A stretch of 64,000 bases of DNA from Bacillus sp. 7884-1 (GTDB lineage Bacteria > Bacillota > Bacilli > Bacillales > Cytobacillaceae). Below, one piece after another: positions 34,173 through 51,016 of this stretch (position 1 is the stretch's first letter; every line of letters begins with the position of its first letter). Both the position numbers and the translations under genes were made by a program. The notes under the pieces were generated by a model. That model ran no database searches and was not told the origin of the DNA. It worked only from the letters and a program-made list of their open reading frames with translations. The stretch spans positions 1-64,000 of the forward strand of contig NZ_NPDD01000129.1 of NCBI RefSeq assembly GCF_002272245.1, read 5' to 3'.

Positions 34173-35279
34173 ATGAAATCCTTTGAATATGGTGACGAGG
34201 AAATTGGAAATAAGGAAGTCACATTCCTGGTCGCTAATTATGTGATTGGATTTGGGATTCTTACTCTTCCACGTGCCATTGTAGATATCACAAAATCAAT
34301 AGATGGCTGGATATCCATTTGTCTTGGTGCATTCGTTGCACTTTTTTTTACCGGAGTGGTTGCACGATTAATTACAAGATTCCCTAAGAAAAACCTTTTT
34401 GACATTTCGAAGTCCATTTTTAATAAGCCAGTTGCAATGGGTATCACCTTTTTATTTGCCTTCTATATGATGCTCTTTGTTAGTTATGAAATGAGGGGGG
34501 TCGCGAGCATTGCCAAACTATATTTGTTTGATGTCACTCCTGTCGAAGTCATTTGTTTAGTTTTTCTGTTAGTGGTTGTTTATGGAGTAGCAGGTCCAAG
34601 CACTGGATTATTACGATTAAATATTATGTTTATACCTATCATCCTGTTTATTATATTAATCTTAATCGTTTTTAATATCACATTTATCAAAATGGAAAAT
34701 ATCAAGCCTTTTTTTATTACGGGGTGGTTAGACGTCATTAAGGCTTCAAAGGAAACCGTATTCTCTTTCTTAGGCTTTGAGATTTTATTATTTTATAATG
34801 TGCATAATAACCAACCGAAAAAGACTTTGAAAGCTTCACTAATTGGAATGACAATAGCCTTTCTTTTATATCTGATTGTGTTTTTGGTTGCCATTGGTGT
34901 GTTTGGCGTCGAAGTAACGAATAATCTCAATTTTCCAACGGCAGAATTAGCAAAACAAGTGGAAATACCAGGTGGATTTTTTGGAAGATTTGAATCGATA
35001 TTTTTCACGATATGGGTTATGACATTATTTAGCACAGCTGCCATGGCATTTGATGTCGCTCTTTTGGCACTTTGTGCAATCTTTAAAAGGATAAAGAGAA
35101 TGACGTTCATCTTTGTCTTAACACCCATCATTTATATAATCGCGATGACACCTCAAAATTTTAATGAATTTTCAACATTTGGATTATATATCAGTTATTT
35201 AGGTATCGTGTTCAGTATGATTATTCCTTCTCTATTGCTCATTTTCGCAAAAATAAGCGGGGTGAAGGGGAATGTATAA
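34173..35279 (+). CDS. Spore germination permease, GerAB family
   Basis: A 368-residue integral membrane protein with about ten helices. It opens with EIGNKEVTFLVANYVIGFGI and LTLPRAIVDITKS, the first helix pattern of the GerAB/APC fold. AAAGGAGGAG stands just before the ATG. The downstream gerC-type gene starts 8 bases inside its 3' end. In characterised receptors this subunit contains the germinant pocket; the ligand here is unknown. It differs clearly from the GerAB protein at 659-1747, so the two operons are not recent duplicates. Confidence 0.92.
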   Translation: MKSFEYGDEEIGNKEVTFLVANYVIGFGILTLPRAIVDITKSIDGWISICLGAFVALFFTGVVARLITRFPKKNLFDISKSIFNKPVAMGITFLFAFYMMLFVSYEMRGVASIAKLYLFDVTPVEVICLVFLLVVVYGVAGPSTGLLRLNIMFIPIILFIILILIVFNITFIKMENIKPFFITGWLDVIKASKETVFSFLGFEILLFYNVHNNQPKKTLKASLIGMTIAFLLYLIVFLVAIGVFGVEVTNNLNFPTAELAKQVEIPGGFFGRFESIFFTIWVMTLFSTAAMAFDVALLALCAIFKRIKRMTFIFVLTPIIYIIAMTPQNFNEFSTFGLYISYLGIVFSMIIPSLLLIFAKISGVKGNV

Positions 35280-36465: not shown

Positions 36466-36477
36466 AGGAGGTAAACC

Positions 36478-36630
36478 ATGTGGGACTTTATAATAGGAAG
36501 ACTTCCTTCGAAGTTCATCCTCATAAATGCAGTTTTCTCTTTGTTAATCCCACTAGGAATTTATAAGTTAAATAAAGTGCTCCATAAATTTGGTGATCCC
36601 CCATGGAAAAATAATCAAAATCCTAAATAA
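36478..36630 (+). CDS. Small single-pass membrane protein, possible GerD-type receptor accessory subunit
   Basis: A 50-codon gene, ATG at 36478 with AAAGGAGGT at 36464-36472. The protein begins MWDFIIGRLPSKF, has one hydrophobic helix (FILINAVFSLLIPLGIYKL) and a short charged tail ending NNQNPK. It follows gerC in the same operon. Small D subunits are known beside some receptors (GerKD, GerUD and GerVD in Bacillus) and modulate germination, but they usually have two membrane helices and are somewhat longer. The assignment rests on position and topology, not on sequence similarity. Confidence 0.65.
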   Translation: MWDFIIGRLPSKFILINAVFSLLIPLGIYKLNKVLHKFGDPPWKNNQNPK

Positions 36631-36702
36631 AATTCTAAGGTCTGTGTTGAGGAAGTAGTATAGACATTAACATGCGTCCATAAAGGGACGAGGATATGAG
36701 TA

Positions 36703-36725
36703 GGTTGCTGAGGCAGCCTTTTTCT
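36703..36725 (+). terminator. Intrinsic terminator of the second ger operon
   Basis: GGTTGC, loop TGAG and GCAGCC (one G-U pair) run into TTTTTCTCTT. Confidence 0.7.
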
Positions 36726-36870
36726 CTTGTGTGTTGAAAAAAATGACTGGAATTGTTGATCTGTTCATACATAATTACCCCTAATCACTAAGCAAGTAAA
36801 TGATACTCACCTATTTTGACGCACAAGTATCATAACTATCAATATTCATCATGTTATACAAAGAAAAATA

Positions 36871-36911
36871 GTGTAAAAAAAACTTGCGCTTTTGGTTTGG
36901 TTTTTTTACAC
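36871..36911. promoter_or_regulatory. Candidate activator-binding inverted repeat upstream of the first sigma-54 promoter
   Basis: GTGTAAAAAAA (36871-36881) and TTTTTTTACAC (36901-36911) form a perfect 11-bp inverted repeat ending 50 bp before the -24 box. The same half-site occurs upstream of the second sigma-54 promoter. An enhancer site for the NtrC-type activator encoded at 43804 is inferred. Confidence 0.6.
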
Positions 36912-36961
36912 GAAATCTCCTTAACCTTCTTTATCCCTTGAAACGTCCCCTTTTAAAAGAG

Positions 36962-36978
36962 TTGGCATGAAAATTGCT
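36962..36978 (+). promoter_or_regulatory. Sigma-54 (-24/-12) promoter of the DUF6282-glcD-glcF-nitrilase operon
   Basis: TTGGCAT GAAAA TTGCT has the GG and GC dinucleotides exactly 10 bp apart, as sigma-54 holoenzyme requires. It differs from the TTGGCAC-N5-TTGCA consensus at two positions. It lies 44 bp before the first start codon. Confidence 0.8.
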
Positions 36979-37022
36979 TACTAATCTTATAAGAAAGTGA
37001 ATTTATTTAAGGAGTGACGAAT

Positions 37023-37904
37023 ATGAATCATGAATTTCATCCATTGCTTAAAGGGGCCATTGAATTGCATGTTCATAGTTCACCTAGTTTGTTTCCACGG
37101 AAGCAAACAGATTGGGAACTTGTCGAGGATGTGAAAAAGTCACAAATGGCGGGTGTTGTCTTAAAAGCCCATGAAGCGCAAACGGTCGACCGGGCAAGTC
37201 TTATTCGTGAGAAGGAACCGGGGTTACATGTATACGGAGGATTAGTATGTAATTACTTTACCGGTGGCCTATCCGCCACTGCAGTTGATGCCGCGATCCG
37301 GTTAGGGGCGAAAATCATTTGGATGCCTACATTTTCGGCTGAGGAGCACCAGCGATATTTTGGCAAGAAAAAAACGAAATTTTTCAATAGTAAACGTGCC
37401 ATGACCCATCCAGCTGCTGGAATTGAAATATGGGATGAAGACAAAAACCTCCTTCCAGAGGTTTATGAAATATTAGAGTTAATTGCTGAGGCGAACATTG
37501 TTTTGGCCACAGGGCATTTGGCGGCAGAAGAAGTTCTTGTTTTAGTAGAAGCAGCGAAAGAAAGAAAGGTAGAGAAAATATTAATCCAACATACCGATTT
37601 AGGCATTGCAAGGGTACCTTTTGAATTAGAAAAACAGTTAGTAAAACAAGGCTGTATTCTGGAAAAATGTTATTTAGCCTGCAGCGAAGATTTTGATGAT
37701 ATCACAGCCCAGGAAATGGCGGAGAGTATTAAGCTGCTAGGTGCCGAGTCCTGTGTAATGGTGACTGATTATGGACAGCGCCATAATGTGCCGCCTATTA
37801 AAGCGTTAAGCAATTTTATTGAGGAGATGTTAGCAAACGGCATTTCAGAAGAAGAAATTACCACAATGGTCAATTACAATCCTAAAAAACTGTTAGGGAT
37901 TTAG
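37023..37904 (+). CDS. DUF6282 family protein (metal-dependent hydrolase-like)
   Basis: A 293-residue protein opening with LKGAIELHVHSSPSLFPRK; the HxH pair (His16, His18) is the metal-binding start of amidohydrolase/PHP-like barrels. Further candidate ligands are His in VVLKAHEAQTVDR, ATGHLAAEE and ILIQHTDLG. I assign DUF6282 from this opening and length; no reaction is known to me for the family. The ATG at 37023 has AAGGAG at 37009-37014; the in-frame GTG at 37014 would overlap that site. First gene behind a sigma-54 promoter, so it belongs to the inducible pathway with GlcD/GlcF and the nitrilase. Confidence 0.75.
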   Translation: MNHEFHPLLKGAIELHVHSSPSLFPRKQTDWELVEDVKKSQMAGVVLKAHEAQTVDRASLIREKEPGLHVYGGLVCNYFTGGLSATAVDAAIRLGAKIIWMPTFSAEEHQRYFGKKKTKFFNSKRAMTHPAAGIEIWDEDKNLLPEVYEILELIAEANIVLATGHLAAEEVLVLVEAAKERKVEKILIQHTDLGIARVPFELEKQLVKQGCILEKCYLACSEDFDDITAQEMAESIKLLGAESCVMVTDYGQRHNVPPIKALSNFIEEMLANGISEEEITTMVNYNPKKLLGI

Positions 37905-37919
37905 AAAGGAAGTAAAGGA

Positions 37920-39323
37920 ATGGAAGCTGTTATAGTAAAAGAAATCGAGCAAATTGTCTCTGCCAATCGGATGATGACTGGGCTGGAAGATCTTTATTCT
38001 TATAGCTATGATGCTTCTTTTGGTGAGTATTTACCTGAACTAGCTGTTCAACCTGAAAACGCTTACGAGATTAGTCAAATTATGAAGTTAGCAAACAAGT
38101 ATCGGATTCCCGTCTATCCAAGAGGTTCGGCTACCTCATTAAGTGGAGGTCCACTGCCTGTTGAGGGCGGAATTGTCTTAGATATGACGAGGATGAATAA
38201 AAAACTCATTATTGACCGTGAAAACTTGTTGGCCATTGTATCTCCAGGGGTTACGACCGGTGAAATTCATCGAAAAGCAGAAGAAGTGGGGCTGTTTTAT
38301 CCTCCTGACCCAAGCAGTTCAAAGATATCTACGATTGGCGGGAATTTATTAGAGAATTCAAGCGGGCCAAAAGGGCTTAAATATGGGACCACGAAAGAAT
38401 ATGTCATTGGCTTAGAAGTGGTCACGCCAGAAGGGGAAATTGTTCGAACTGGCGGGAAAACAGTTAAAAATGTAACCGGGTATGATTTAACAAGATTAAT
38501 TGTTGGCTCGGAAGGAACGCTCGGGATCGTAACCGAAGCGACATTGAGGTTAATCCCAAAACCAATTGCACAAAAAACCTTATTGGCAACCTTTAGTAGA
38601 TTAGTTGATTCCGGGTATGCGATCACGAAAATTTTATCTTCTGGTATTTTACCTGCTGCAATGGAATTGATGGATAATCCTTGTATTCGGGCAGTGGAGA
38701 ACTTTAGTCCATGTGGTCTTCCGATTGATGCTGAAGCACTCATTATCATTGAAGTAGACGGACATCCTTTGGCGATCCAGGAAGAAATTGAAAAATGTGA
38801 GGAGATCTGCTGGCAAGCGGGGGCAACCAGTGTTAGAACCGCCAAAACAGACCAGGAGCGGGAAGACATTTGGAAGGCACGCCGCATGGTGTCTCCGGCC
38901 ATTACGCAAATGGGACCGACGAAAATCTCAGAGGATGCTACCGTGCCCCGCAGCCAAATTCCGGCGATGATGGAGAAATTGAGTCATATCCGCAAAAAAT
39001 ATGATCTTAATTTAGTTGTTTTTGGTCATGCAGGTGATGGAAATTTGCATCCTAATATTATTACGGATAAACGAAATATTGAAGAAATGAAACGAGTTGA
39101 GAATGCGGTCAGTGAGATTTTTGAAGCTGCTGTATCACTCGGTGGAACCCTTTCAGGTGAGCACGGAATTGGGATCCTAAAAGCCCCATACATGGAAATG
39201 GAATTAGGGGAGGCGGGCCTTGGGTTAATGAAGAAGGTAAAAGAGGCATGGGATCCTCTCAATATATTAAATCCGGGAAAAATATTTCCGAAAGCAGGGC
39301 AAACAAAGGTGGTGCTCGTATAG
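37920..39323 (+). CDS. FAD-linked 2-hydroxyacid oxidase, GlcD family
   Basis: A 467-residue flavoprotein. The FAD-binding PCMH domain (about 40-215) has IPVYPRGSATSLSGGPLP, PDPSSSKISTIGGNLLENS and VKNVTGYDLTRLIVGSEG. The C-terminal oxidase domain ends with VVFGHAGDGNLHPNI, LSGEHGIGILK and DPLNILNPGKIFP. This is the glycolate oxidase GlcD / D-lactate dehydrogenase type. It probably oxidises a 2-hydroxy acid and passes electrons to the iron-sulfur protein encoded next. The ATG follows GGAAGTAAAGG and lies 15 bp from the preceding gene. No GlcE-like subunit is present, so it is a two-subunit version. The substrate may be a pathway intermediate, not glycolate. Confidence 0.9.
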   Translation: MEAVIVKEIEQIVSANRMMTGLEDLYSYSYDASFGEYLPELAVQPENAYEISQIMKLANKYRIPVYPRGSATSLSGGPLPVEGGIVLDMTRMNKKLIIDRENLLAIVSPGVTTGEIHRKAEEVGLFYPPDPSSSKISTIGGNLLENSSGPKGLKYGTTKEYVIGLEVVTPEGEIVRTGGKTVKNVTGYDLTRLIVGSEGTLGIVTEATLRLIPKPIAQKTLLATFSRLVDSGYAITKILSSGILPAAMELMDNPCIRAVENFSPCGLPIDAEALIIIEVDGHPLAIQEEIEKCEEICWQAGATSVRTAKTDQEREDIWKARRMVSPAITQMGPTKISEDATVPRSQIPAMMEKLSHIRKKYDLNLVVFGHAGDGNLHPNIITDKRNIEEMKRVENAVSEIFEAAVSLGGTLSGEHGIGILKAPYMEMELGEAGLGLMKKVKEAWDPLNILNPGKIFPKAGQTKVVLV

Positions 39324-39324
39324 T

Positions 39325-40674
39325 ATGAATGCTCCATTGAAGAAAACCGAGCCTTGTCCCTCCCCTCAGCCGCCTTCTCTCGTCCCAAAGAAGGGCAATC
39401 GATTATACGAATTAGCCTATGAAGCTACCAATCAGTGTATCCAGTGCGGATATTGTTTGCCTGCCTGTCCAACCTATGAATCCATGGGAAAGGAATCGGC
39501 ATCGCCAAGAGGGAGAATTAATCTAGTAAAAATGGCGGCGGAAGGAAAGATCGATATTTCCAAGCACTTGGCTGAACCGATTGACCTTTGCTTAGGATGC
39601 CGCGCGTGTGAAACCGCTTGTCCTGTAAGTGTTCCATATGGGCATATTTTAGAATCAGCAAAACAGGTCATTGCAGAAGAGCAAACGAACCAGAATGATA
39701 AGTTGAAAAAATTAATTTTAAAACAGGTTTTCCCTTATCCAAAGCGGATGAGATTAATCGGAAATTTAACGTGGTTTTATCAAAAATCCGGTCTCAGAAC
39801 CATGGTGAAGAAAACAAAGCTTCTTCACAAAATTTCAGAACCGATGGCAACATTTGAATCTGTGCTGCCAGAGATCGAGTCCCCAGCAAAACGGATCAAA
39901 CTAGGTACGATTATTCCTGCTAAGGGTAAAACAAAAGCAAGAGTTGCTTTTTTTACAGGCTGTATATCGGACGCATTACTGAATCGAACCAACCGGTTAA
40001 CGATTGAGCTGTTAACATTGGTTGGCTGCGAAGTGATTATTCCAAAATCGCAAAATTGTTGTGGTGCCCTGCATGCTCACCAAGGAATGATGGAACATGC
40101 CAAGGAGCTTGCGAAACAAAATATTGCTGCTTTTGAGGAAACAGAATCCGCCTATTATATTAACAATGCAGGCGGGTGCGGGGCTCTTCTGAAAGAATAT
40201 GACCACCTTCTAGAAAAAGAGGAAGAATGGGCGGAACGGGCAAAGAAATTTAGCTTTGCCTCCAAAGACATTAGTGAAGTCCTCGTTGAATTCGGACCGC
40301 TCCCGTTTAAGAAAGAATGGGATGGTGTGATTACCTATCAGGATTCCTGTCATTTACGAAATGTGCAAGGGGTACACCGGGAGCCAAGGAAATTACTCCA
40401 ATCCATACCCGGTGCTTGCTTTGTTGAACTTCCTGGAAGTGACAGCTGCTGTGCTTCAGGAGGAATCTATAATCTTCTCCATTTTGAGGAATCAATGAAA
40501 ATCCTGGATCAAAAAATGGAAAACGTCGAAAAGACGAATGCCGCGACCGTTGTCACAACGAATCCAGGGTGTTTGCTGCAAATGCGGGTTGGAATCGAAA
40601 GGCAGGGATGCAGCGGTCAGGTACAAGGGGTTCATTTAGTCGATGTCTTAGCTGATGCATGTGGAATCTCGTAG
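39325..40674 (+). CDS. Iron-sulfur subunit, GlcF family heterodisulfide-reductase-like protein
   Basis: A 449-residue protein with two 4Fe-4S clusters near the N-terminus, CIQCGYCLPACPTY and CLGCRACETACPVS (CxxCxxCxxxCP). Two CCG-type domains follow, with SQNCCGALHAHQG and GSDSCCASGGIYN. This is the GlcF/LldE/HdrD-like electron-transfer partner of GlcD and probably delivers electrons to menaquinone at the membrane. It starts 2 bp after the glcD-type stop. A near-tandem pair without a separate promoter means fixed co-expression. Nothing key appears to be missing. Confidence 0.9.
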   Translation: MNAPLKKTEPCPSPQPPSLVPKKGNRLYELAYEATNQCIQCGYCLPACPTYESMGKESASPRGRINLVKMAAEGKIDISKHLAEPIDLCLGCRACETACPVSVPYGHILESAKQVIAEEQTNQNDKLKKLILKQVFPYPKRMRLIGNLTWFYQKSGLRTMVKKTKLLHKISEPMATFESVLPEIESPAKRIKLGTIIPAKGKTKARVAFFTGCISDALLNRTNRLTIELLTLVGCEVIIPKSQNCCGALHAHQGMMEHAKELAKQNIAAFEETESAYYINNAGGCGALLKEYDHLLEKEEEWAERAKKFSFASKDISEVLVEFGPLPFKKEWDGVITYQDSCHLRNVQGVHREPRKLLQSIPGACFVELPGSDSCCASGGIYNLLHFEESMKILDQKMENVEKTNAATVVTTNPGCLLQMRVGIERQGCSGQVQGVHLVDVLADACGIS

Positions 40675-40715
40675 GTGACAGGCACCTCCGAAATATGAGC
40701 GAAAGGGGAAGATAT

Positions 40716-41558
40716 ATGAAACTAGGAATTGCTCAGGTGGCGCCTGTTTTTGGAAACGTGGAGGCAAACGTATCAGAAATGATTGACTTCATGCAATTGA
40801 ATAAAGAGAAAGCGGATTTGCTTGTTTTTCCTGAGTTATCTTTAACGGGTTACGATCTGAAAGAAGGGCTGTATGATGTAGCTTTAACGTTGGATTCCCG
40901 AGAAATTAGGCTCATATGCGAGTCATCAAAAGAGATTGGAATGAATGTCGTTTTCGGATTTGTTGAACAAGGGAAGGGCGACCAAATTTATAATTCCGCG
41001 ATGATGATCAAAGAGGGTAAGATTTGTTCTGTTCAAAGGAAGATTTATCCTACTAATTACGGTGTTTTTGAAGAGGGGAAATATTTTTCCAGAGGTAAAA
41101 AAGTTCAGGTCGAACCAATTGGCTCTTTTACCTCCAGCATGCTCATTTGTAATGATTTATGGCACCCGTCACTGCCACACATTGCAGCCCACCAGCATAC
41201 TTCACTGCTGATCGGATTAATTAATAGCCCAGATGGCGGTCTTGGCAGTCAGTATTCCAGTTCTAAGGGCTGGGAAACAGTAGGAAAGTTTTATGCAGGA
41301 ATTTATGGATGCTATGTAGCATTAGTCAATCGTGTAGGGATTGAAAACGACATCACGTTTTATGGAAATTCAAAGGTAATCGATCCATATGGCCGAATTA
41401 TTGCACAATGTCCATATGGAGAGCCGTCCGTCCAAATCTGTGAAATAGATACTAGCTTAGTGAAAGAAATACGAACGCTGCTCCCTGTTATAAGAGATGA
41501 GGATGTCCATGTAACCATGAGGCATTATCAAGAGATTGCAGAGCAGGAATTTGTATAA
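40716..41558 (+). CDS. Carbon-nitrogen hydrolase (nitrilase superfamily)
   Basis: A 280-residue nitrilase-fold enzyme. The catalytic triad is visible: Glu40 in LLVFPELSLTGYDL, Lys in SVQRKIYPTNYGVF, and Cys in SSMLICNDLWHP. The family hydrolyses amides, N-carbamoyl compounds or nitriles. The Cys-Asn-Asp context and length suit an amidase or carbamoylase more than a true nitrilase, but this is not decisive. The ATG at 40716 is preceded by AAAGGGGAAG; a longer in-frame start at 40659 would overlap the GlcF gene and is rejected. It is the last gene of the first sigma-54 operon and presumably acts on the same nitrogenous substrate. Confidence 0.85.
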   Translation: MKLGIAQVAPVFGNVEANVSEMIDFMQLNKEKADLLVFPELSLTGYDLKEGLYDVALTLDSREIRLICESSKEIGMNVVFGFVEQGKGDQIYNSAMMIKEGKICSVQRKIYPTNYGVFEEGKYFSRGKKVQVEPIGSFTSSMLICNDLWHPSLPHIAAHQHTSLLIGLINSPDGGLGSQYSSSKGWETVGKFYAGIYGCYVALVNRVGIENDITFYGNSKVIDPYGRIIAQCPYGEPSVQICEIDTSLVKEIRTLLPVIRDEDVHVTMRHYQEIAEQEFV

Positions 41559-41568
41559 GACCGATTTT

Positions 41569-41629
41569 AAACAGCCTTGCCATAGAGTATGGTTCAAAAC
41601 ACCTATACTTTAATGTAAGGCTGTTTTTG
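41569..41629 (+). terminator. Intrinsic terminator of the first sigma-54 operon
   Basis: AAACAGCCTT (41569-41578) pairs with AAGGCTGTTT (41617-41626) across a long loop, followed by TTG. Confidence 0.65.
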
Positions 41630-41692
41630 TTTCTCTTATTCTACTATAATATCAGATATACGCAAATTTTCTAAAAATTATGTATAGGAGAC

Positions 41693-43807
41693 ATGAACTT
41701 GAAACAATTATTGCAATCTAGAATAACAAAAAGATATGTACTGGTTACGTTTATAGTTGTATTTGGTTCTTTAGCCTCCATTTATTATGTTACGACGAAT
41801 GTCTTACATGATTCAGTACACTCAGAAATTAAATATCGAAATCAATTAATGGGAAAAACGATTAGTACCAAGACCAGCTTTTTGCTCGAGAAAATGATCA
41901 ATGATATCCGCATCATATCCGAGTATGTTTTAAGTGATTCCAACGAAAACACGGTTTTTTATCAGACCGAAATGGACCATGTTGTTTCTAAAAATCCACT
42001 GTATTTATTCCTAGAAGTTATCGACGTATCTAGAAATTCCATTGCCACCATCCCAAATGTAAATAATTCAAGTTATGATGAAGTCCATGATATTTTAGAC
42101 CGGTTAGAATGGAGCAAGACGTTTTATATTACGAATCTCCTAACTCTGGAGGATGGCCGGAAAACAATCGGAATTGCCTATCCTGTTCTTGATGAAAAAG
42201 AAAATTATCGAGGCGCCGTATTAGCCTATGTTAACTTAAACGTCCTATCAGATTACCTTTCTCAGGGGAAAATTGGAACGGAAGGGCTTAATGTATTAGT
42301 GGATCGCAATGGAACGATCATCGCTCATACACAGGAAAAATATATTGGAGAATCGCTAAAGGAGCATCCGTTAGGTCAAGGTTTAAGTAGATATCGAAGT
42401 GGTATTTGGGAAGGGGAATTGTTTCATGAATCACTGCTTACTTCGTACAGGCCGATTACCTTAGGGGGAATGGGTCTGATTATTGGTGAATCCACCGAAC
42501 AAGCAATGGCACCATCAAAACAGGTTCAGGTTCTCCTATTGAAAGGTTTTTTACTGGTGCTGTTTCTTACCTATTTATTAACCTTGTTCGGAGCTTTTAG
42601 AATCATTCATCCTGTAACCAAATTAACGAGACAGGCTAAGGAGTATTCTGAAGGGAAAAGGGATGACTTTGAAAAGCTTCAAACAGGGGACGAGATTGAG
42701 AACCTTGCGGACACAATGGCAAACATGGCGATCGAATTAAAAAATAAAGAAAGGCATTTGTTCTATATTTTAGAATCCATCCCCTACGGAATCATCACCA
42801 TCGATAAAGATGGAAGGATTGTGACGTTTAATAGGGGAGCAGAGGATTTATCAGGATATGCTCGCGAAGAGGTAATGGGCAAATTTATTATCGAGGTTCC
42901 CTTTAAAAGGTCTGAAGAAGAATTTCTATCATGGAAAACGATTAAGGAAGGAAGAGAAATTAACGAACAAGAAAGCTATATTTATGATAAAAATGGAAAC
43001 AAGCGTGATGTCCGTATTTATTCCTCGTTATTTAGTGATGAAAATCAAACGATTATTGGTTCGATTCTTATTATAAGAGACGTAAGTGATATGAAAAAAA
43101 TGGAGGATTATCTTAAGCAAAGTGAAAAATTGGCTTCATTAGGACAATTAACGGCAGGAATCGCCCATGAAATCAAAAACCCGCTAAGTATCATTCAAGC
43201 CGCAGCGGAAGCGATTCTACTAGATGTAAAGGATCCTGTTTATGTTCAAGAAATGAGTGAGGATATTTTAGAAACAACGGATCGCTTAAATCAATTATTA
43301 ACTGATTTTTTGAGTTTATCAAAAGGGGAATTCGAAGATGAATGGGAACAAGTTGATTTAGCTGCCGTATTGTACGAACTTCTCAATCTATTGAAAAATA
43401 AATTTTCTGAGCTCAATATTTCCGTTACAAAAATATTTGACGTTGATGAAGCGTTTGTTTTAGCGAAACAAGGGAAATTAAGTCAAGTGTTCTTAAACGT
43501 TATGATTAATAGTCTGCATGCAATGGAAGAGGGAGGAACGTTATCTGTTCGATTAATGGAGACAGATGCAAATTGGCTTGTAGAAATAAAAGATACGGGG
43601 ATTGGGATACCCGAATCTGAAATTAAGTGGATTTTTAATCCTTTCTATACAACCAAAAAAGAAGGGACGGGATTAGGGTTATCGATTGCCTATGAAATCA
43701 CCACGCAGTTTGGCGGGGATATTCTAGCTGAATCTGATTTAAGTGGTACAAATTTATCCATTCAGCTGCCTAAACTCATCGAAGAAAGGAGAGCATTTTG
43801 GTCATGA
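41693..43807 (+). CDS. Sensor histidine kinase with extracellular Cache and PAS domains
   Basis: A 704-residue NtrB/DctB-like kinase. Membrane segments lie near 17-36 and 279-300 and enclose a double-Cache-type sensor (LFLEVIDVSRNSIATIP; GLNVLVDRNGTIIAHTQ). Then come HAMP (300-352), a PAS domain (about 358-465; ITIDKDGRIVTFNRGAEDLS), the H-box GIAHEIKNPLS with His492, and the ATPase domain (NVMINSLHAMEEGG, DTGIGIPESE, GTGLGLSIAYE). An extracellular Cache domain usually binds a small carboxylate or amine. The gene lies between the two sigma-54 operons and its stop overlaps the ATG of the activator gene, so it most likely senses the pathway substrate outside the cell. Confidence 0.93.
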   Translation: MNLKQLLQSRITKRYVLVTFIVVFGSLASIYYVTTNVLHDSVHSEIKYRNQLMGKTISTKTSFLLEKMINDIRIISEYVLSDSNENTVFYQTEMDHVVSKNPLYLFLEVIDVSRNSIATIPNVNNSSYDEVHDILDRLEWSKTFYITNLLTLEDGRKTIGIAYPVLDEKENYRGAVLAYVNLNVLSDYLSQGKIGTEGLNVLVDRNGTIIAHTQEKYIGESLKEHPLGQGLSRYRSGIWEGELFHESLLTSYRPITLGGMGLIIGESTEQAMAPSKQVQVLLLKGFLLVLFLTYLLTLFGAFRIIHPVTKLTRQAKEYSEGKRDDFEKLQTGDEIENLADTMANMAIELKNKERHLFYILESIPYGIITIDKDGRIVTFNRGAEDLSGYAREEVMGKFIIEVPFKRSEEEFLSWKTIKEGREINEQESYIYDKNGNKRDVRIYSSLFSDENQTIIGSILIIRDVSDMKKMEDYLKQSEKLASLGQLTAGIAHEIKNPLSIIQAAAEAILLDVKDPVYVQEMSEDILETTDRLNQLLTDFLSLSKGEFEDEWEQVDLAAVLYELLNLLKNKFSELNISVTKIFDVDEAFVLAKQGKLSQVFLNVMINSLHAMEEGGTLSVRLMETDANWLVEIKDTGIGIPESEIKWIFNPFYTTKKEGTGLGLSIAYEITTQFGGDILAESDLSGTNLSIQLPKLIEERRAFWS

Positions 43808-45171
43808 AGAACATCTTACTTGTGGACGATGAATCCAAAATTTTAAAAATCTTAAAATCTTCGCTTACGAAACAAGGCTATACCGTCTATACCGCTGCAA
43901 ACGGTCAGGAGGCACGAAAAAAAATATCAGATCTCCCTGCTAACCTAGTATTTTTAGATATGAAACTGCCTGATGCTTGTGGTTTAGAGCTTTTACAAGA
44001 ATTTAGCGGGCTTTATCCTAACAAGATTTTTATAATGATGACGGCGTATGGAAATATTGACAACGCCGTAGCGGCAATGAAGGCGGGAGCTTTTGATTAT
44101 ATGGTAAAACCTGTTCGGTTAAACGAAATGCTTGTTACCATTGAAAAAGGATTTGAATGGCTTGGAGTAAAAGAGGAAAATAAGCGATTAAAAGAAAAGC
44201 TTCAGCAATCAGAGGTGAATGGGGAATTAGTGGCTAACAGCAGTGCAATGAAAGATATCCTTAGGCTGGTAGAACGGGTTTCCTCTACAGAAGCCAATAT
44301 CATGATTCAAGGTGAAAGTGGAACGGGAAAAACAAAAATTGCCCAAATGATCCATATGCTTAGCGAGCGAAAACAGTCCCCTTTTATTCCAGTAAATTGT
44401 GCAGCGATTCCAGAGCAATTGCTTGAGAGTGAGCTGTTTGGTCATGAAAAGGGTTCTTTTACTGGTGCCGTTTCCAGCAGGAAGGGGAAATTTGAAGCCG
44501 CTAACGGAGGCACGATTTTTTTAGATGAAATTGGCGAGATTTCACCTGCTTTCCAGGCGAAGCTTCTCCAAGTCACGCAGGACAAGACGTTTATGAGGGT
44601 TGGCGGTGATGTTTTAAGAAAAGTAGATGTTCGGATTATTTGTGCAACCAATCGGGATTTAAAGAAGCTTGTAGAAGAAGGGAAATTTAGAGAAGACTTA
44701 TATTATCGCTTAAACATTGTAGATATTTATATCCCTTCCTTACGAGAACGACAGGAGGATATTCCCCTGTTAGTGGAAAAATTCTTGGACAAGTATCGGA
44801 TCAAACATCAAAAAAATTATCAAACAAACAGAGAATTATTGAACCATTTAATGAATTATCAATGGCCAGGAAACGTTCGCGAGCTCGAAAATGCGATCGA
44901 AAGGGCCGTCGTTTTATGCCATGGGGATTCCATTACGATTGAGGATTTCACAAGGGAGATCCGCGATATTAAAAATCAAAGTTTTACAGATTTTTTGGAT
45001 GAAGACACCTATATTCCATTGCCAGATCTCTTGGATGAGATGGAAAAGAAATATATTTTAAAGGCACTTGATGACTCGCTCGGACAACCTTCCAAAGCAG
45101 CAAGAAAACTAGGAATCTCTAGACAAAGCCTTTTATATAAAATGAACAAGTATTTCACAGAGGAGCTTTAA
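43804..45171 (+). CDS. Sigma-54-dependent response regulator, NtrC family
   Basis: A 455-residue activator. The receiver domain has Asp52 (NLVFLDMKLPD). The AAA+ domain has Walker A GESGTGKT (about 170), the sigma-54-contacting loop GSFTGA (about 217; the usual motif is GAFTGA, with Ser at the second position), Walker B GGTIFLDEIGE and VRIICATNRDLK. A Fis-type helix-turn-helix ends the protein (SKAARKLGISRQSLLYKMNK). ATG 43804 overlaps the kinase stop (ATGA); the in-frame TTG 43798 is the alternative start. It is flanked by two operons with sigma-54 promoters and common upstream motifs, its likely targets. Confidence 0.94.
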   Translation: MKNILLVDDESKILKILKSSLTKQGYTVYTAANGQEARKKISDLPANLVFLDMKLPDACGLELLQEFSGLYPNKIFIMMTAYGNIDNAVAAMKAGAFDYMVKPVRLNEMLVTIEKGFEWLGVKEENKRLKEKLQQSEVNGELVANSSAMKDILRLVERVSSTEANIMIQGESGTGKTKIAQMIHMLSERKQSPFIPVNCAAIPEQLLESELFGHEKGSFTGAVSSRKGKFEAANGGTIFLDEIGEISPAFQAKLLQVTQDKTFMRVGGDVLRKVDVRIICATNRDLKKLVEEGKFREDLYYRLNIVDIYIPSLRERQEDIPLLVEKFLDKYRIKHQKNYQTNRELLNHLMNYQWPGNVRELENAIERAVVLCHGDSITIEDFTREIRDIKNQSFTDFLDEDTYIPLPDLLDEMEKKYILKALDDSLGQPSKAARKLGISRQSLLYKMNKYFTEEL

Positions 45172-45178
45172 ATAAGAG

Positions 45179-45220
45179 GCGGATTCAAAAGTTTATTGCT
45201 TTTGAATCCGCTTTCTCTTT
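45179..45220 (+). terminator. Intrinsic terminator of the kinase-activator operon
   Basis: GCGGATTCAAAAG, loop TTTATTG and CTTTTGAATCCGC form a perfect 13-bp stem followed by TTTCTCTTT. Confidence 0.85.
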
Positions 45221-45240
45221 GGGAGAGTATTTTGTAAATA

Positions 45241-45272
45241 TTTTTTTACACGATTGGCGGGTTTTTTTACAA
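45241..45272 (+). promoter_or_regulatory. Candidate activator-binding direct repeat upstream of the second sigma-54 promoter
   Basis: TTTTTTTACAC (45241-45251) and TTTTTTTACAA (45262-45272) repeat with a 21-bp period, two helix turns, ending 38 bp before the -24 box. They match the half-sites at 36871-36911. Confidence 0.6.
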
Positions 45273-45310
45273 AATTTTTAGAAAATTACATAAATATCTT
45301 TAATTCTGTG

Positions 45311-45327
45311 TTGGCACGGTACTTGCA
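45311..45327 (+). promoter_or_regulatory. Sigma-54 (-24/-12) promoter of the ABC transporter-mmgE-hydrolase operon
   Basis: TTGGCAC GGTAC TTGCA is a full match to the sigma-54 consensus, with GG and GC 10 bp apart. It lies 38 bp before the first start codon. Confidence 0.9.
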
Positions 45328-45365
45328 AGATATATAGATAAATAGTTTGCAAGGGGGTGCAGAAG

Positions 45366-46016
45366 TTGGAGATTCTAGATTTCGTCTCAACCAATTGGTC
45401 AGAAATGCTTAGGATGACGTTAGAACATATTCAATTAGTTGGTTTAGCAGTTGGAATTGCTATTTTTACTGGGGTACCATTTGGAATTTATATTTCACAG
45501 CGGGAATCCTTGGCTGAATTGGTTCTGGCTGTAGCAGGTATCATCATGACGATACCGAGTATCGCATTATTTGGGATCATGATTCCTATTTTCTCACTTA
45601 TTAATCAAGGAATTGGATTTTTACCAGCGATTGTGGCGTTAATATTGTATTCCCAATTACCGATTATTCGAAACACCTATATTGCGATTAAGAATGTGGA
45701 TCCGAATGTAAGAGATGCAGCAATTGGAATGGGAATGACCACCTTTCAGCGTTTAGTAAAAGTAGAGCTTCCACTGGCCTTTCCGGTCATTATGGCAGGT
45801 GTACGAATGGCGATTGTTCTTACCATTGGTATAGGGGCCATTGCGGCTTACATTGGAGCAGGCGGGTTAGGCGGTTACATTGCCCGCGGTATTTCAACTA
45901 GCTATGCAGCGATGATTCAAGCAGGAGCATTAGCCGTTTCCATTTTAGCCATTTCTGTGGATTTATTGTTAGGGAAGTTGCAGAAGAAAGTAGCAGGGAG
46001 AAGTGCTAGATCTTAA
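45366..46016 (+). CDS. OpuC/Yeh-type quaternary-amine ABC transporter permease
   Basis: A 216-residue permease with about five or six helices and the binding-protein-dependent EAA loop (RDAAIGMGMTTFQRLVKVEL, then PLAFPVIMAGVRMAI). This is the OpuBB/OpuCB/YehW type that moves glycine betaine, choline and related compounds. The TTG at 45366 has AAGGGG at 45351-45356 with 9 nt spacing; the GTG at 45357 would overlap that site. It is the first gene of the second sigma-54 operon, ordered permease-ATPase-permease-binding protein. Inducible sigma-54 control suggests uptake for catabolism, not osmoprotection. Confidence 0.88.
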   Translation: MEILDFVSTNWSEMLRMTLEHIQLVGLAVGIAIFTGVPFGIYISQRESLAELVLAVAGIIMTIPSIALFGIMIPIFSLINQGIGFLPAIVALILYSQLPIIRNTYIAIKNVDPNVRDAAIGMGMTTFQRLVKVELPLAFPVIMAGVRMAIVLTIGIGAIAAYIGAGGLGGYIARGISTSYAAMIQAGALAVSILAISVDLLLGKLQKKVAGRSARS

Positions 46017-46049
46017 AACGTAACTAAATGAGGAGGATGGTGAAGTCGA

Positions 46050-47048
46050 ATGATTGAATTTAAAAATGTCACAAAGGTTTATGAAAGCGGTAACAAAAAA
46101 GTGACCGCGGTTAATGATATTAATTTTCAAGTTGAACAAGGTGAAATCTGTGTTTTCCTTGGACCATCCGGATGTGGAAAGACGACTTTGCTTCGAATGG
46201 TCAACCGCTTAATTCCCATTACCAGCGGTATGATTGAAGTAGAAGGTAAAGATATTCATTCCATGGATATGATTAAGCTTCGAAGATCGATTGGATATGT
46301 CATTCAGCACAATGGATTATTTCCAAATATGACGATTGAAGAGAATATTAATGTTGTTCCGAAAATGCTGGGCTGGGATCAGAGTAAAATGAAAAAACGA
46401 TATAGTGACCTTATGGATATGATGGGATTGGACGCTGGTCAGTTTCAAAAGCGTTTTCCATATGAATTATCAGGGGGGCAGCAGCAACGGATTGGTATTG
46501 CCCGTGCTTTAGCGGCAGATCCGCCCGTAATGCTAATGGATGAACCGTTTGGGGCACTGGATCCCGTTATTCGGGACCACTTACAAAATGAATTTTTGAA
46601 GATTCAAAAAGAAATGAAAAAGACGATTCTTTTTGTCAGTCATGACATCGATGAGGCCATTAAATTAGGAGATAAAATCGCTATTTTTGATACAGGGAAG
46701 CTCATGCAAATCGGTACATCTGATGAAATCTTGTCTAAGCCAAAAAATGATTTTGTCCGTGATTTCGTCGGAGACGACCGCTCCTTAAAGCGATTAACGC
46801 TATTAACCGTTCGAGATTTGATTGTTTTAGTTGATGGCTTTAAAAAGAACCGATTGAATAATGAGTGGCATGGGCAGGTCATTTCAGTTAACGAGAACCT
46901 AAAGTCCGCTTTAGCCGCCTTGTTAATGGCTCCAAATGGAGAGGCGTGTGTAGTCGATGATCATAACCGGAAAATAGGCGTATTGCGTGTCTCTGATTTT
47001 AGTTTATTAACGGAAGTCCATCCGAAAGATATCTCGATTGTAAGATAA
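46050..47048 (+). CDS. OpuC-type ABC transporter ATP-binding protein
   Basis: A 332-residue ATPase with Walker A GPSGCGKTT, signature LSGGQQQRIGIARAL, Walker B VMLMDEPFGALD and the H-loop FVSHDIDEA. The C-terminal extension from about 250 resembles one degenerate CBS pair (VSVNENLKSAL is close; CVVDDHNRKIGVLRVSDF is clear). OpuCA/ProV proteins use two CBS domains to sense ionic strength. This region is shorter and may not sense osmolarity, in line with a catabolic role. AGGAGGATGG precedes the ATG. It lies between the two permease genes. Confidence 0.92.
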   Translation: MIEFKNVTKVYESGNKKVTAVNDINFQVEQGEICVFLGPSGCGKTTLLRMVNRLIPITSGMIEVEGKDIHSMDMIKLRRSIGYVIQHNGLFPNMTIEENINVVPKMLGWDQSKMKKRYSDLMDMMGLDAGQFQKRFPYELSGGQQQRIGIARALAADPPVMLMDEPFGALDPVIRDHLQNEFLKIQKEMKKTILFVSHDIDEAIKLGDKIAIFDTGKLMQIGTSDEILSKPKNDFVRDFVGDDRSLKRLTLLTVRDLIVLVDGFKKNRLNNEWHGQVISVNENLKSALAALLMAPNGEACVVDDHNRKIGVLRVSDFSLLTEVHPKDISIVR

Positions 47049-47061: not shown

Positions 47062-47799
47062 TTGACAGGTAAAAAAACGGAACAAATCGTAAAGATCAGT
47101 TTATATGTAATTGTGTTGGCGATTTTAAGCTGGGCATACTTTACCGGAGCATTTCAGTTCATTATTGATAATCCCGGTGACTTACTCTATTTAACTGGAC
47201 AGCATTTAAAGCTTGTAGGAATTTCGGCGGCTCTAGCTATTGCCACAGCTGTGCCTCTAGGTATACTGATCACACGTCCAAAATTTAAAAAATATGATTG
47301 GATCGTGATGAACTTTGCAAACATAGGTCAAACGGTACCAAGTTTAGCGATTCTTGCACTTGTGATGAGCTACTTTGGATTAGGCTGGCAAACAGCGATT
47401 TTCGCACTTTGGTTTAATAGCTTACTTCCCATCCTTCGAAATACAGTCGCAGGGGTTGAAAACGTCAATCCTCTCATTATCGATGCCGGAAAAGGAATGG
47501 GAATGACTTCAAAGCAAATCTTTTTTAAACTTGAATTTCCCAATGCCATGTATGCAATCATGGCGGGGATTCGAACCTCAGTGGTCATAAATATTGGAAC
47601 TGCTGCTTTATCCTTTCTTATTGGAGGCGGTGGTTTAGGAGATTTAATATTTACTGGAATTTCCCTCTATGATACTGGGATTATGCTTTCTGGAGCTGTC
47701 CCTGTCATCCTGTTGGCCATCCTGATTGATTTTTTATTGGGAAGATTCGAAAAGGTGCTCATTCCAAGGGGACTTCAAAGAACACTCGAAGCAGCTTAA
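47062..47799 (+). CDS. OpuC/Yeh-type quaternary-amine ABC transporter permease, second subunit
   Basis: A 245-residue permease, paralogous to the one at 45366: EAA loop IIDAGKGMGMTSKQIFFKLE, then FPNAMYAIMAGIRTSVV. The N-terminal membrane helix KISLYVIVLAILSWAYF is extra. The TTG start has AAGGAGGGAGG directly upstream, which makes the rare start convincing. Two different permeases plus one ATPase are normal for OpuB/OpuC-like importers. Confidence 0.9.
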   Translation: MTGKKTEQIVKISLYVIVLAILSWAYFTGAFQFIIDNPGDLLYLTGQHLKLVGISAALAIATAVPLGILITRPKFKKYDWIVMNFANIGQTVPSLAILALVMSYFGLGWQTAIFALWFNSLLPILRNTVAGVENVNPLIIDAGKGMGMTSKQIFFKLEFPNAMYAIMAGIRTSVVINIGTAALSFLIGGGGLGDLIFTGISLYDTGIMLSGAVPVILLAILIDFLLGRFEKVLIPRGLQRTLEAA

Positions 47800-47826: not shown

Positions 47827-48759
47827 ATGAAGAAATTTGTTTATCTGTTATGCGCTGTCATGATGCTCATCTCTTTAGCAGCATGTAACAGTTCAAGTGC
47901 AAGTAATAATGGAGGTGGTTCTGGCAAAGGTAAGGGGAAAGTGACGGTAGGAGGAAAGGATTTCACGGAGCAGCAAATTCTATCTAAAATTACTTCTATT
48001 TATTTAAAAGACAAGGGGTATGATATTGAGGAAGCGAGCAATATGGGAAGTACTGTCGTCCGCTCTGCCTTAGAAAATGGACAAATTGATGTTTATTGGG
48101 AATATACCGGTACTGGGTTAGTCGTGTATCAAAAACAAGCGGTGGAAACAGATTCCGATAAAGCCTATGAAAAAGTAAAGAAAAACGATAAGGAAAACGG
48201 AATTGCTTGGTTAGATAAAGCCAATTTTAACAACACTTATGCCATCTTGATGAAGAAGGACACAGCGGAAAAATTAGGGATAAAATCCGTTTCAGACTTA
48301 TCGAAGCTTGTAAATGATGATTCAAAGAAATTAAAGTTTGCTTCTAATGCAGAATTTTATGCCCGACAAGATGGAGTAAAGGGTTTACAGGAGCATTACG
48401 GTTTTGAATTCCCTTCAAAGAACGTAGTGAAAATGGATTCTGGGCTGCTTTACAATGCGTTAAAGGATGGACAGGTCGATATTTCAGTTGGTTTCGCAAC
48501 GGATGGCCGTATTAAAGGCTTTGATCTCGTTGTTCTTGAAGATGATAAGCAATTCTTCCCAGCCTATAATGGGGTTCCTGTTGTAAGACAGGAAGTAGCA
48601 GATAAAAATCCTGAAATCTCTGAGTTGCTTAATAAATTGGCGGATCTTCTCGATAATGAAACGATGATGACCCTCAATTATTCCGTTGATGTAGATCATA
48701 AGGATGTGACAGAAGTAAGCCGTCAATGGTTAGAAGAGGAAGGGTTAATTAAAAAATAA
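47827..48759 (+). CDS. OpuC-type substrate-binding lipoprotein
   Basis: A 310-residue lipoprotein: MKKFVYLLCAVMMLISLAAC with lipobox LAAC, then a Gly/Ser linker. The OpuAC-type domain starts VTVGGKDFTEQQILS and has the strongly conserved NGQIDVYWEYTGTGL. Another conserved stretch is FPAYNGVPVVRQEV. Relatives bind glycine betaine, choline, carnitine or similar through an aromatic cage; which residues form it cannot be told by eye. GGGGAGG precedes the ATG. The match of family and operon implies a quaternary-amine-like or small carboxylate substrate. Confidence 0.92.
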   Translation: MKKFVYLLCAVMMLISLAACNSSSASNNGGGSGKGKGKVTVGGKDFTEQQILSKITSIYLKDKGYDIEEASNMGSTVVRSALENGQIDVYWEYTGTGLVVYQKQAVETDSDKAYEKVKKNDKENGIAWLDKANFNNTYAILMKKDTAEKLGIKSVSDLSKLVNDDSKKLKFASNAEFYARQDGVKGLQEHYGFEFPSKNVVKMDSGLLYNALKDGQVDISVGFATDGRIKGFDLVVLEDDKQFFPAYNGVPVVRQEVADKNPEISELLNKLADLLDNETMMTLNYSVDVDHKDVTEVSRQWLEEEGLIKK

Positions 48760-48786: not shown

Positions 48787-50133
48787 TTGCAGATGGTTTC
48801 TGGAAAATTAGTGAAGTATATGATGGAAGAATCTTATTCTTCGATTCCCATCCATGTTAAGCAAGCTTTAAAAGAAGCCCTTACAGATATTATTGCCTGT
48901 ACGATTGCAGGAACCAAAACAAATGTATTTGAAATCGTGAGGAAATTTTCCAGAAGTCAATGGGGAGCTGGAGCAAGCTCAATTCTCATGAGTTCTTATA
49001 AACTCAGTGCTTCAGGAGCTGTCCTTGTCAATGCAACATCAGCCAATGCCCTGGATATGGATGATGGTCATCGCCTTGTGAAAGGACATCCAGGTGCCAT
49101 TGTTTTCCCCGCCGTATTTGCTGCTGCGGAAGAGTACAATATTTCAGGTGAAGAATTTCTGACTTCGTTGCTAATAGCATATGAAGTAGGGATTAGAGCT
49201 GGGATTCTCGCCCATCACCTTCGTTCTGAATACCATTGTACTGGTTCTTGGGGAGCCATTGGGGCAGCCGCTGGGGTAGGCAGGGTAATCGGATTATCTG
49301 AAGGTGAAATGCATCATGCGCTTGGCATCGCTGAATACCAATCGACCTATTCACCAATGATGCGCTGCATTGAAAAGCCATCCATGCTGAAGGACGGGAT
49401 CGGCTGGGGAAGTATGACAGGAATCAGTTCTGCTTACTTAGCAAAAGAGGGTTTTACGGGGATTCCATCTCTTTTTGAAATGGAGGAAGCCCATGCTTAC
49501 TTACAAGAATTTGGGCAAGTTTATAGAACAGAAGAACTCTACTATAAGCCTTACGCCTGTTGCCGGTGGGCCCAGCCAGGTATCGAAGCTTTGCGAGAAT
49601 TGATAGAAAAGTATAATTTATCAAAGGAAAATGTTGAAAAAATAACCATTTATACTTTTACCGAGTCTGCCAGTTTGAGTCGATGCTATCCAAAAAATAC
49701 GGAAGAAGCGCAATATAATTTAACCTTTCCAGTTGCCGCTTATCTGTATGCGGGTGAAGTCGGTCCCGATCAAGTATTAAATGAGTTAGAAAATCCAGAG
49801 ATTCTAAAAATCATGGATAAAATGGAAGTTTATGGAAGTGAAGAATGTAATCGTGAATTTCCTAAAAAGGCTCTAAGCAGAATCGAAATTGTAGATTCTG
49901 AGGGGAACTTATATGCTTCTCGCATCCATCAAGCAAAGGGTGACTATGATTATCCGCTTACATCCACGGAAAAGAGGCAAAAGTTTACTAGTTTAGTAGC
50001 TCCGATATTAGGAGCAGCGCGTTGCGATGATTTATTTGAATGTATTCAAAATGTAGAAAACCTAAAAAACATTCGCCACTTAAGCGAATTAATAAACCTT
50101 GGAGGGATTAAACATGAAAGAACGCCAAATTAG
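48787..50133 (+). CDS. MmgE/PrpD family protein
   Basis: A 448-residue protein of the 2-methylcitrate dehydratase/iminodisuccinate-epimerase-like fold. Typical features are LTDIIACTIAGTK, the ANALDMDDGHRLVKGHPGAI metal-free active-site stretch, and WGAIGAAAGVGRVIGLSEGE. The family performs dehydration or epimerisation next to a carboxylate, including PrpD, cis-aconitate decarboxylase and iminodisuccinate epimerase. The TTG at 48787 has GGGAAG 9 nt upstream; ATG 48793 is possible. The next gene starts 20 bases inside its 3' end. Together with the transporter it points to breakdown of a carboxylated compound. Confidence 0.88.
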   Translation: MQMVSGKLVKYMMEESYSSIPIHVKQALKEALTDIIACTIAGTKTNVFEIVRKFSRSQWGAGASSILMSSYKLSASGAVLVNATSANALDMDDGHRLVKGHPGAIVFPAVFAAAEEYNISGEEFLTSLLIAYEVGIRAGILAHHLRSEYHCTGSWGAIGAAAGVGRVIGLSEGEMHHALGIAEYQSTYSPMMRCIEKPSMLKDGIGWGSMTGISSAYLAKEGFTGIPSLFEMEEAHAYLQEFGQVYRTEELYYKPYACCRWAQPGIEALRELIEKYNLSKENVEKITIYTFTESASLSRCYPKNTEEAQYNLTFPVAAYLYAGEVGPDQVLNELENPEILKIMDKMEVYGSEECNREFPKKALSRIEIVDSEGNLYASRIHQAKGDYDYPLTSTEKRQKFTSLVAPILGAARCDDLFECIQNVENLKNIRHLSELINLGGIKHERTPN

Positions 50134-51016
50134 TTTTTATAGTGAAGGATTAAAATTAGATGGGACGATCTATTTGCCAGATGATTATCAGCCTGGTGAA
50201 AAAAGACCAGCTATTATCCCTAACTCTGGATACCAGGGCTTTAATGAATTTTATCCGCGTTTGTTTGCCCGTAATTTAACTGAAGCAGGCTATGTTTGCC
50301 TCGGATTTGATTACCGTGGATTTGCAAAAAGTGAGGGGCAGCAAGGTAGAGTTATTTTAGATGAGCAAGTACAAGATATCAAAAATGCGATTACGTTCCT
50401 GCAGCTTCAAGAAGAAGTAGATCCTGAAAATATTAGCTTAATCGGCTGGGGAATGGGTGCCTCGAACGTTGTGCGCGTCGCAGCATCCGATGACCGCGTG
50501 AAGGCAGTTGCCGCACTAAACGGTTTTTTTAACGGTGAAAGATGGTTAAAATCCATCCATTCCTATGTTGAGTGGGTAGAGATTAAAAAGATGATCGAGG
50601 AAGACCGTATTCTTCGTGTCACAACTGGAAGTTCAAAATACGAGGATCCATTTATTCATTATCCATTAGACCCTGCCACTAATGATTATGTCCAAAAAGA
50701 ACTTGCACCTTTATCACCATTTGGGAAGCTAACACAATTACAATTTACTGAATCGATTATTGAGTTGAATGCTGAAAAAACGGCGAAAGACATTAAATGT
50801 CCATTATTTGTAGCACATGGAAAGGATAATCTACTTCATCCAGTCGATGAATCCCTTAAATTTTACGATGCAGCAGCAGAACCTAAACAGCTGTACATCA
50901 TTGATGGGAAACATAACGACTTCATGTATCATGAACACCCAGTATTCCAGGATTTAATTACTCAACTAAACACTTTTTTTGGAGCTTGTCACTTTCCTAA
51001 TTTAGTCGAAGTTTGA
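50114..51016 (+). CDS. Alpha/beta hydrolase fold protein lacking the serine nucleophile
   Basis: A 300-residue dienelactone-hydrolase/YcjY-like protein. The oxyanion region (PNSGYQGFNEFYPR), strand 5 and the C-terminal Asp (HGKDNLLHPVDES) and His (DGKHNDFMYHEHP) are in place. However, the nucleophile elbow reads ISLIGWGMGASN, where the family has G-x-S-x-G: the Ser is replaced by Gly. So it either uses another chemistry, binds without hydrolysis, or is inactive. GGAGGG lies 7 nt before the ATG, and the gene overlaps mmgE by 20 bases. It is the last gene of the operon. Confidence 0.85.
   Translation: MKERQISFYSEGLKLDGTIYLPDDYQPGEKRPAIIPNSGYQGFNEFYPRLFARNLTEAGYVCLGFDYRGFAKSEGQQGRVILDEQVQDIKNAITFLQLQEEVDPENISLIGWGMGASNVVRVAASDDRVKAVAALNGFFNGERWLKSIHSYVEWVEIKKMIEEDRILRVTTGSSKYEDPFIHYPLDPATNDYVQKELAPLSPFGKLTQLQFTESIIELNAEKTAKDIKCPLFVAHGKDNLLHPVDESLKFYDAAAEPKQLYIIDGKHNDFMYHEHPVFQDLITQLNTFFGACHFPNLVEV

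Follow-up and report, generated by a model that had tools for sequence, protein, structure and literature searches.

A putative self-contained two-component sigma-54 regulon joining a catabolic and a transport operon in Bacillus sp. 7884-1

Described systems and the present locus

AtoSC, NtrBC and DctBD combine a membrane histidine kinase with a response regulator built of a receiver, an AAA+ domain and a Fis-type DNA-binding domain. Here we describe a kinase–regulator pair of the same build in Bacillus sp. 7884-1. It is encoded in a 64,000-nucleotide stretch (positions 1 to 64,000 of contig NZ_NPDD01000129.1, forward strand; hereafter "the window") between two operons that each follow a sigma-54 promoter box, P1 and P2; pair and operons together span about 14 kb. 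Judging from the sequence, the pair very probably activates both the catabolic operon behind P1 and the transport operon behind P2, which would make the locus a self-contained two-component sigma-54 regulon. The best NCBIfam match of the regulator is AtoC (PRK11361), at 472.5 bits against a curated cut-off of 714. Unlike AtoSC, NtrBC and DctBD, of which the last is named in PMC3162934, the predicted targets here are an OpuC-type importer and a DUF6282–GlcD/GlcF operon, and the pair lies between its two targets.

A sigma-54 activator between two target promoters is also found at the sarcosine oxidase locus of Bacillus thuringiensis HD73 (SoxR; PMC4428206), which serves the breakdown of a small nitrogen compound (PMC4941409), as the present locus may. 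SoxR is listed with a PAS domain (PMC4428206) and is a one-component activator, whereas the present locus encodes a two-component pair. In Clostridiales, TGT-N10-12-ACA enhancers occur in 15 activator groups, mostly with several sites per promoter and with one to six operons per activator; 44 activators there, about 10%, carry receivers (PMC6615313). The dyads upstream of P1 and P2 have the same form, but the Clostridiales enhancers mostly lie 100-250 bp upstream (PMC6615313), whereas ours stop 51 bp (P1) and 39 bp (P2) short of the box. Among the matches listed from the open-licence literature, we found no system of this make-up. The type of regulon is known already; the pathway attached to it is unstudied.

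Promoter boxes, candidate enhancer frame and kinase–regulator pair

The initial annotation placed sigma-54 boxes with GG-N10-GC spacing at 36962 and 45311, 38-44 bp before the first gene of each operon. Both are found exactly there, as TTGGCAY-N5-TTGCW with GG and GC 10 bp apart, the arrangement of a sigma-54 (-24/-12) promoter, and they precede the likely starts chosen by eye by 44 bp at P1 (ATG 37023) and 38 bp at P2 (TTG 45366); the GTGs upstream of these codons overlap ribosome sites. These two boxes are the only matches with zero mismatches in the window, for which a first-order Markov model of the window predicts 0.058 (5.4 per 6.0-Mb genome). When up to two mismatches are allowed, the window holds 29 matches against 22.7 expected, a number reached by 9 of 100 shuffles, and weaker matches therefore carry no meaning. 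Genome-wide, YTGGCAYN5TTGCW has 26 matches and its reversed control eight. Mechanical sorting of the 26 sites placed 11 within open reading frames (ORFs) of at least 140 amino acids, 12 outside them with a start codon and a ribosome-site-like stretch downstream (both P1 and P2 are in this group), and three in neither class.

Alignment of the upstream regions brought out, besides the boxes, a 39-bp TGTAAA...TTTACA frame. It consists of two 18-bp dyads, TGTAAA-N6-TTTACA (TGT-N12-ACA), whose centres are 21 bp apart, or two helical turns, and the distances from its end to the box are those given above (51 bp at P1, 39 bp at P2). Over the four half-sites, P1 agrees at 16 of 24 bases, being good in its outer halves only, and P2 at 19 of 24. 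Putative enhancer dyads common to both target promoters are consistent with an NtrC-family activator acting on both. We scored the outer-half bases in the 250 bp upstream of all 26 genomic sigma-54 sites: P1 and P2 reached 12 of 12, the next best site 9 of 12, and the frame was absent from the remaining 24, so that, by this measure, the regulon would comprise two operons. A search for the frame by itself gives six places in the genome, P1 and P2 included, against about 1.2 expected. The initial annotation had proposed a genome-wide search for further sites with the same upstream motif; in this genome, the combination of frame and box at a gap of 25-55 has two matches, each of them in the window. 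Across 193 family genomes this search gave 11 matches in seven genomes, ten of which adjoin genes of this cluster by coordinates, and the reversed control had none among the matches listed.

Both elements are also found in related loci. With the activator as query, 28 loci were fetched from named genomes; 29 were mapped (L044-L063 and L073-L081), of which L044-L052 are Bacillaceae with the cluster or part of it. The regulator is 81-94% identical in L044-L051 and 68% identical in L052. After removal of repeats with identical promoter DNA (L073 of L044, L074 of L051, L076 of L045, L077 of L048), nine distinct P1 alleles (window, L044, L045, L048, L049, L050, L051, L075 and L081) and eight distinct P2 alleles (window, L044-L048, L051 and L052) remained; the sequences of L046, L047 and L052 start too far along the contig for P1 to be included. 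The exact box is in place in every allele of both promoters, and the frame with exactly 27 inner bases in 7 of the 9 P1 alleles and 6 of the 8 P2 alleles, L046 and L052 being one base off in the last half-site. Box, spacing and enhancer are thus kept within intergenic DNA that has otherwise diverged. Operon 1 is also carried by the culturable Gottfriedia acidiceleris DSM 18954. Two diverged copies of the system occur in Cytobacillus oceanisediminis 13_TX (L046 and L047), and contigs C23, C25, C27 and C30 of genome G045 hold, by coordinates, the same two copies.

A Cache/PAS histidine kinase and an NtrC-type activator with a GSFTGA loop had been proposed between the operons, and domain matches and motifs bear this out (Table 1). 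The kinase has its H-box, and the regulator has the receiver aspartates, a Walker A motif (GESGTGK) and the GSFTGA loop, a variant of the GAFTGA type; receiver, sigma-54 AAA+ domain and Fis-type helix-turn-helix together place it in the NtrC family. The two genes overlap, the kinase being encoded next door to the regulator. Of 16 PF00158 matches in the genome, eight exceed 200 bits and the rest stay below 45 bits, which gives eight sigma-54 activators beside one sigma-54 gene. By eye, the regulator in the window is the only one with an N-terminal receiver. The other seven resemble, again by eye, one-component activators of PAS or CBS type, and in two of them the loop is varied (GAFSGA, GSYTGA). 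B. thuringiensis HD73 likewise has eight sigma-54 activators, with 16 operons, none of the activators being listed with a receiver (PMC4428206). The view of the initial annotation that sigma-54 control is rare in Bacillaceae is therefore not supported, with eight activators in each of these two genomes. The regulator is matched at E <=1e-90 in 62 of the 193 family genomes (eight candidates per genome scored), and every listed match begins at regulator residue 1-4 and thus covers the receiver; two-component sigma-54 activators are therefore not unusual in the family.

The proposed regulon has its direct basis in the boxes, the enhancer frame, the conservation and confinement of both, the protein domains and the hairpins around the pair. 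In the mechanism that we envisage, the membrane kinase would sense a small solute through its outside dCache domain and phosphorylate the regulator encoded by the next gene. The phosphorylated regulator would bind the two tandem TGT-N12-ACA dyads before each box, assemble an AAA+ ring and open sigma-54 RNA polymerase at both promoters. P1 would then drive the catabolic operon (DUF6282 protein, GlcD/GlcF-like oxidase and amidase) and P2 the transport operon (OpuC-type importer, MmgE/PrpD protein and alpha/beta hydrolase), the pair being expressed from a housekeeping promoter of its own between two terminators. Production of importer and breakdown pathway would be confined to times when a small nutrient is present.

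Table 1 Features of the candidate regulon in window coordinates.
Feature	Position	Strand	Details
Putative enhancer (upstream activating sequence) of P1	36872..36910	+	TGTAAA-N27-TTTACA; two tandem dyads, 21-bp spacing; outer halves exact, inner degenerate
Sigma-54 promoter P1	36962..36978	+	TTGGCATGAAAATTGCT; GG-N10-GC; box in 9/9 distinct P1 alleles
DUF6282 protein, possible metal-dependent hydrolase	37014..37904	+	PF19799 233.5 bits; HxH motif by eye; likely start ATG 37023
GlcD-like FAD 2-hydroxyacid oxidase/dehydrogenase subunit	37920..39323	+	TIGR00387 510.8 bits, cut-off 567.9
GlcF-like iron-sulfur subunit	39325..40674	+	Best NCBIfam match GlcF, 228.5 bits, cut-off 333
Carbon-nitrogen hydrolase (nitrilase superfamily; amidase)	40713..41558	+	PF00795 139.3 bits; ORF open from 40659
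Probable terminator between operon 1 and kinase gene	41569..41626	+	Hairpin and T-rich stretch; -27.5 kcal/mol, z -6.4 (41563-41640)
Candidate housekeeping -10 of kinase–regulator pair	41645..41650	+	TATAAT; in 7/10 aligned sequences (not L049, L050, L082); -35 weak
Sensor histidine kinase	41693..43807	+	dCache_1, PAS, HisKA, HATPase above cut-off; HAMP below; H-box at residue 491
NtrC-family response regulator	43804..45171	+	Response_reg, Sigma54_activat, HTH_8 (Fis-type) all above cut-off
Probable terminator past regulator gene	45179..45211	+	Hairpin; -24.1 kcal/mol, z -7.9 (45176-45222)
Putative enhancer (upstream activating sequence) of P2	45233..45271	+	TGTAAA-N27-TTTACA; first dyad TGTAAATATTTTTTTACA perfect
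Sigma-54 promoter P2	45311..45327	+	TTGGCACGGTACTTGCA; GG-N10-GC; box in 8/8 distinct P2 alleles
OpuC/ProW-type permease	45357..46016	+	Domain matches; likely start TTG 45366
ProV/OpuCA-type ATPase	46050..47048	+	TIGR01186 313.6 bits, cut-off 326.6
Second permease of importer	47062..47799	+	Domain match
OpuAC-domain substrate-binding lipoprotein	47827..48759	+	Most of ProX-type betaine pocket kept
MmgE/PrpD-family protein	48787..50133	+	Domain match; solved relatives found by sequence
Alpha/beta hydrolase	50099..51016	+	Domain match

Predicted target operons and related modules

The GlcD, GlcF and AtoC scores lie below the curated cut-offs, that for the glycolate oxidase subunit GlcD (TIGR00387) included, and we therefore do not claim these exact names. 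The DUF6282 protein has no solved relative by sequence, gave no match in a PADLOC scan and is not named in any paper found in the open-licence literature. For the MmgE/PrpD protein, the closest solved relatives by sequence are Bacillus subtilis IRG1 and IDS-epimerase. The binding protein has the OpuAC domain together with the aromatic cage and carboxylate contacts of the OpuC/ProX type: of the residues that we take to be ligand contacts in Archaeoglobus fulgidus ProX, K13, Y63, T66, Y111, R149 and Y214 are kept (6 of 7), and Y190 is replaced by F, which is still aromatic. A carboxylated cationic solute is therefore favoured, and the substrate may be a betaine-like cation of this kind. Pantothenate, allantoin, carnitine and ectoine pathways fit in part. 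Naming a single substrate was rejected, as the DUF6282 neighbourhoods of other Firmicutes show no single pathway. A Cre-box scan of the window gave 10 matches against 6.9 expected, no excess; Cre-like sites lie in the ATPase gene (46082-46095, exact) and in the GlcD-like gene (38054-38067, one mismatch), where catabolite control is possible.

Of 398 genomes in the phylum, 27 have a match to PF19799. Twenty regions around it (L115-L134) were fetched, and the neighbourhoods read are those of L115-L122 and L127-L134 and, in part, of L123 and L126. Named by eye, the neighbours in other Firmicutes include PucR-, racemase-, dihydroorotate-dehydrogenase-, xanthine-dehydrogenase- and citrate-lyase-like genes and TRAP genes, which suggests a role of DUF6282 in the breakdown of N-heterocycles or hydroxyacids. 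Relatives of the DUF6282 protein at E <=1e-60 occur in 9 of the 193 family genomes. The genome G134, labelled as the same species, matches pieces of the first 14 kb of the window at 92-97%; against 34500-54400 it has 19 short matches, the longest of 393 bases, at 65-87% (40 of 109 candidates scored), and this near-lack of match marks the block as accessory.

Three more distant DUF6282 loci were compared. In L078/L082, with a regulator 58% identical to ours, the system is rearranged: kinase and regulator in L082 are flanked by units with sigma-54-like boxes of their own, one before a hydrolase-amidase unit and one before the importer, with an ATGGCAC variant before DUF6282. The hydrolase-amidase promoter has a perfect TGTAAA-N6-TTTACA dyad. 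The genome with this locus (G066) is a single contig; its GlcF-like gene (L082:11436-12778) falls into two ORFs that overlap and may be broken or misread. In L079/L083 and L080/L084, the 20 kb that were read contain no sigma-54 box.

Seven more distant regulator relatives (L152-L158) were fetched. L152 and L153 (regulator 49% identical) have a sigma-54 box, an OpuC-type operon of permease, ATPase, permease and binding protein, and then kinase and regulator; no DUF6282/GlcD/GlcF-like operon adjoins. A TGT-N12-ACA dyad lies 136 bp before their box, with a second TGTAAA half 22 bp further by eye. In L154 and L156 the regulator is paired with OpuC-type genes and a sigma-54 box, and no TGTAA-N6-10-TTACA dyad occurs within 200 bp. 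These four modules, with regulators 44-49% identical to ours, resemble the present locus in that their OpuC-type genes follow a sigma-54 box. In L154 and L156 the regulator gene has an additional binding-protein gene as its neighbour, which could point to a co-sensor. In L155, L157 and L158 the regulator stands beside other genes.

Elsewhere in the window, two adjacent very large ORFs (14753-27432; 2744 and 1447 amino acids) resemble, by eye, secreted subtilisin-type proteases with added C-terminal parts. Two operons look by eye like GerA-type spore germination operons (659-4316 and 32481-36465); Pfam confirms GerA and GerAC domains only in the latter, and in the former two short ORFs (1720-2184 and 2184-3155) make up the GerA-like part.

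Alternative readings and significance

Several observations weigh against a self-contained two-operon regulon. The orthologs are close relatives, and their promoter alleles are therefore not independent. No transport operon lies within 10 kb past the regulator in L050, and L049 shows only 2 kb; at P1 of both loci the frame has 26 inner bases and lies 135 bp before the box in L049 and 129 bp before it in L050. The inner half-sites of P1 in the window are poor, as the count over its four halves reflects. G134 has no DUF6282 match. The importer promoter of L082 has no TGT-N10-12-ACA dyad within 200 bp, and L083 has a related enzyme core with no sigma-54 box and, by eye, a GntR-like neighbour, so the enzymes do not require sigma-54 control. 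The eleventh frame-plus-box match, in G011 (L135), belongs to an unrelated promoter of another genus, which has the gene of a PAS-type activator on one side and that of an aldehyde-dehydrogenase-type enzyme on the other. Its neighbours resemble rocR-rocA by eye, and it was rejected as part of this regulon; tandem TGT-ACA dyads are therefore not unique to this activator. Around the pair, a consensus scanner listed neither the hairpin before the kinase gene nor its TATAAT -10, and listed the stem past the regulator gene on the minus strand only. The hairpins before the kinase gene are kept in orthologs with changed sequence (by eye). Set against the scanner result, the strong hairpins on both sides and the TATAAT make separate transcription likely only, and we regard the pair as probably a transcription unit of its own between two terminators.

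Among the alternatives, an osmotic or general stress regulon, in which the importer would bring in a compatible solute and the enzymes would do something unrelated, survives best, though we consider it unlikely. OpuC-type importers are the classic osmoprotectant importers, the pocket of the binding protein is betaine-like, and L152 and L153 have kinase, regulator and importer with no enzymes. Importer and catabolic operon, however, have the same type of enhancer and promoter, and the MmgE/PrpD and hydrolase genes closely follow the importer genes. Among the sigma-54 activators that PMC4428206 names for B. thuringiensis, most are of the catabolic kind.

It is more improbable still that the boxes are real and a different one of the eight activators acts at one of them or at both, while the adjacent pair has other targets. 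Seven further activators are available in the genome and the inner half-sites of P1 are weak, yet the same frame stands at both boxes, is kept in orthologs and is absent at the other 24 sites; moreover, kinase, regulator and targets are linked in L082, and in L152 and L153 the importer is linked to kinase and regulator. That the boxes are chance matches or relics and housekeeping promoters transcribe the operons is very hard to credit, for all the eight reversed-control matches and the 11 of 26 sites within ORFs, given the conservation in diverged intergenic DNA and a sigma-70 scan that lists no plus-strand site in 36640-37014 or 45172-45357.

The proposal of the initial annotation, a self-contained two-operon sigma-54 regulon with its own kinase–regulator pair, is well supported by a frame that is present at both boxes and at none of the other 24 sites and that is kept, with the boxes, in orthologs. 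More tentatively, and with somewhat less than even confidence, we suggest that the regulon serves the breakdown of a betaine-like solute by an undescribed pathway, leading from the DUF6282 hydrolase through the GlcD/GlcF-type oxidase to the amidase. The pair would also belong to a wider, undescribed Bacillaceae family of sigma-54 kinase–regulator pairs that control OpuC-type importers, possibly with the binding protein as co-sensor.

For the eight activators of B. thuringiensis HD73, PMC4428206 lists no receiver domain. The locus would offer a clean case in which two-component sigma-54 control can be tested in Bacillaceae. Its predicted enhancer motif is open to mutation, and it ties DUF6282 to a defined set of genes.

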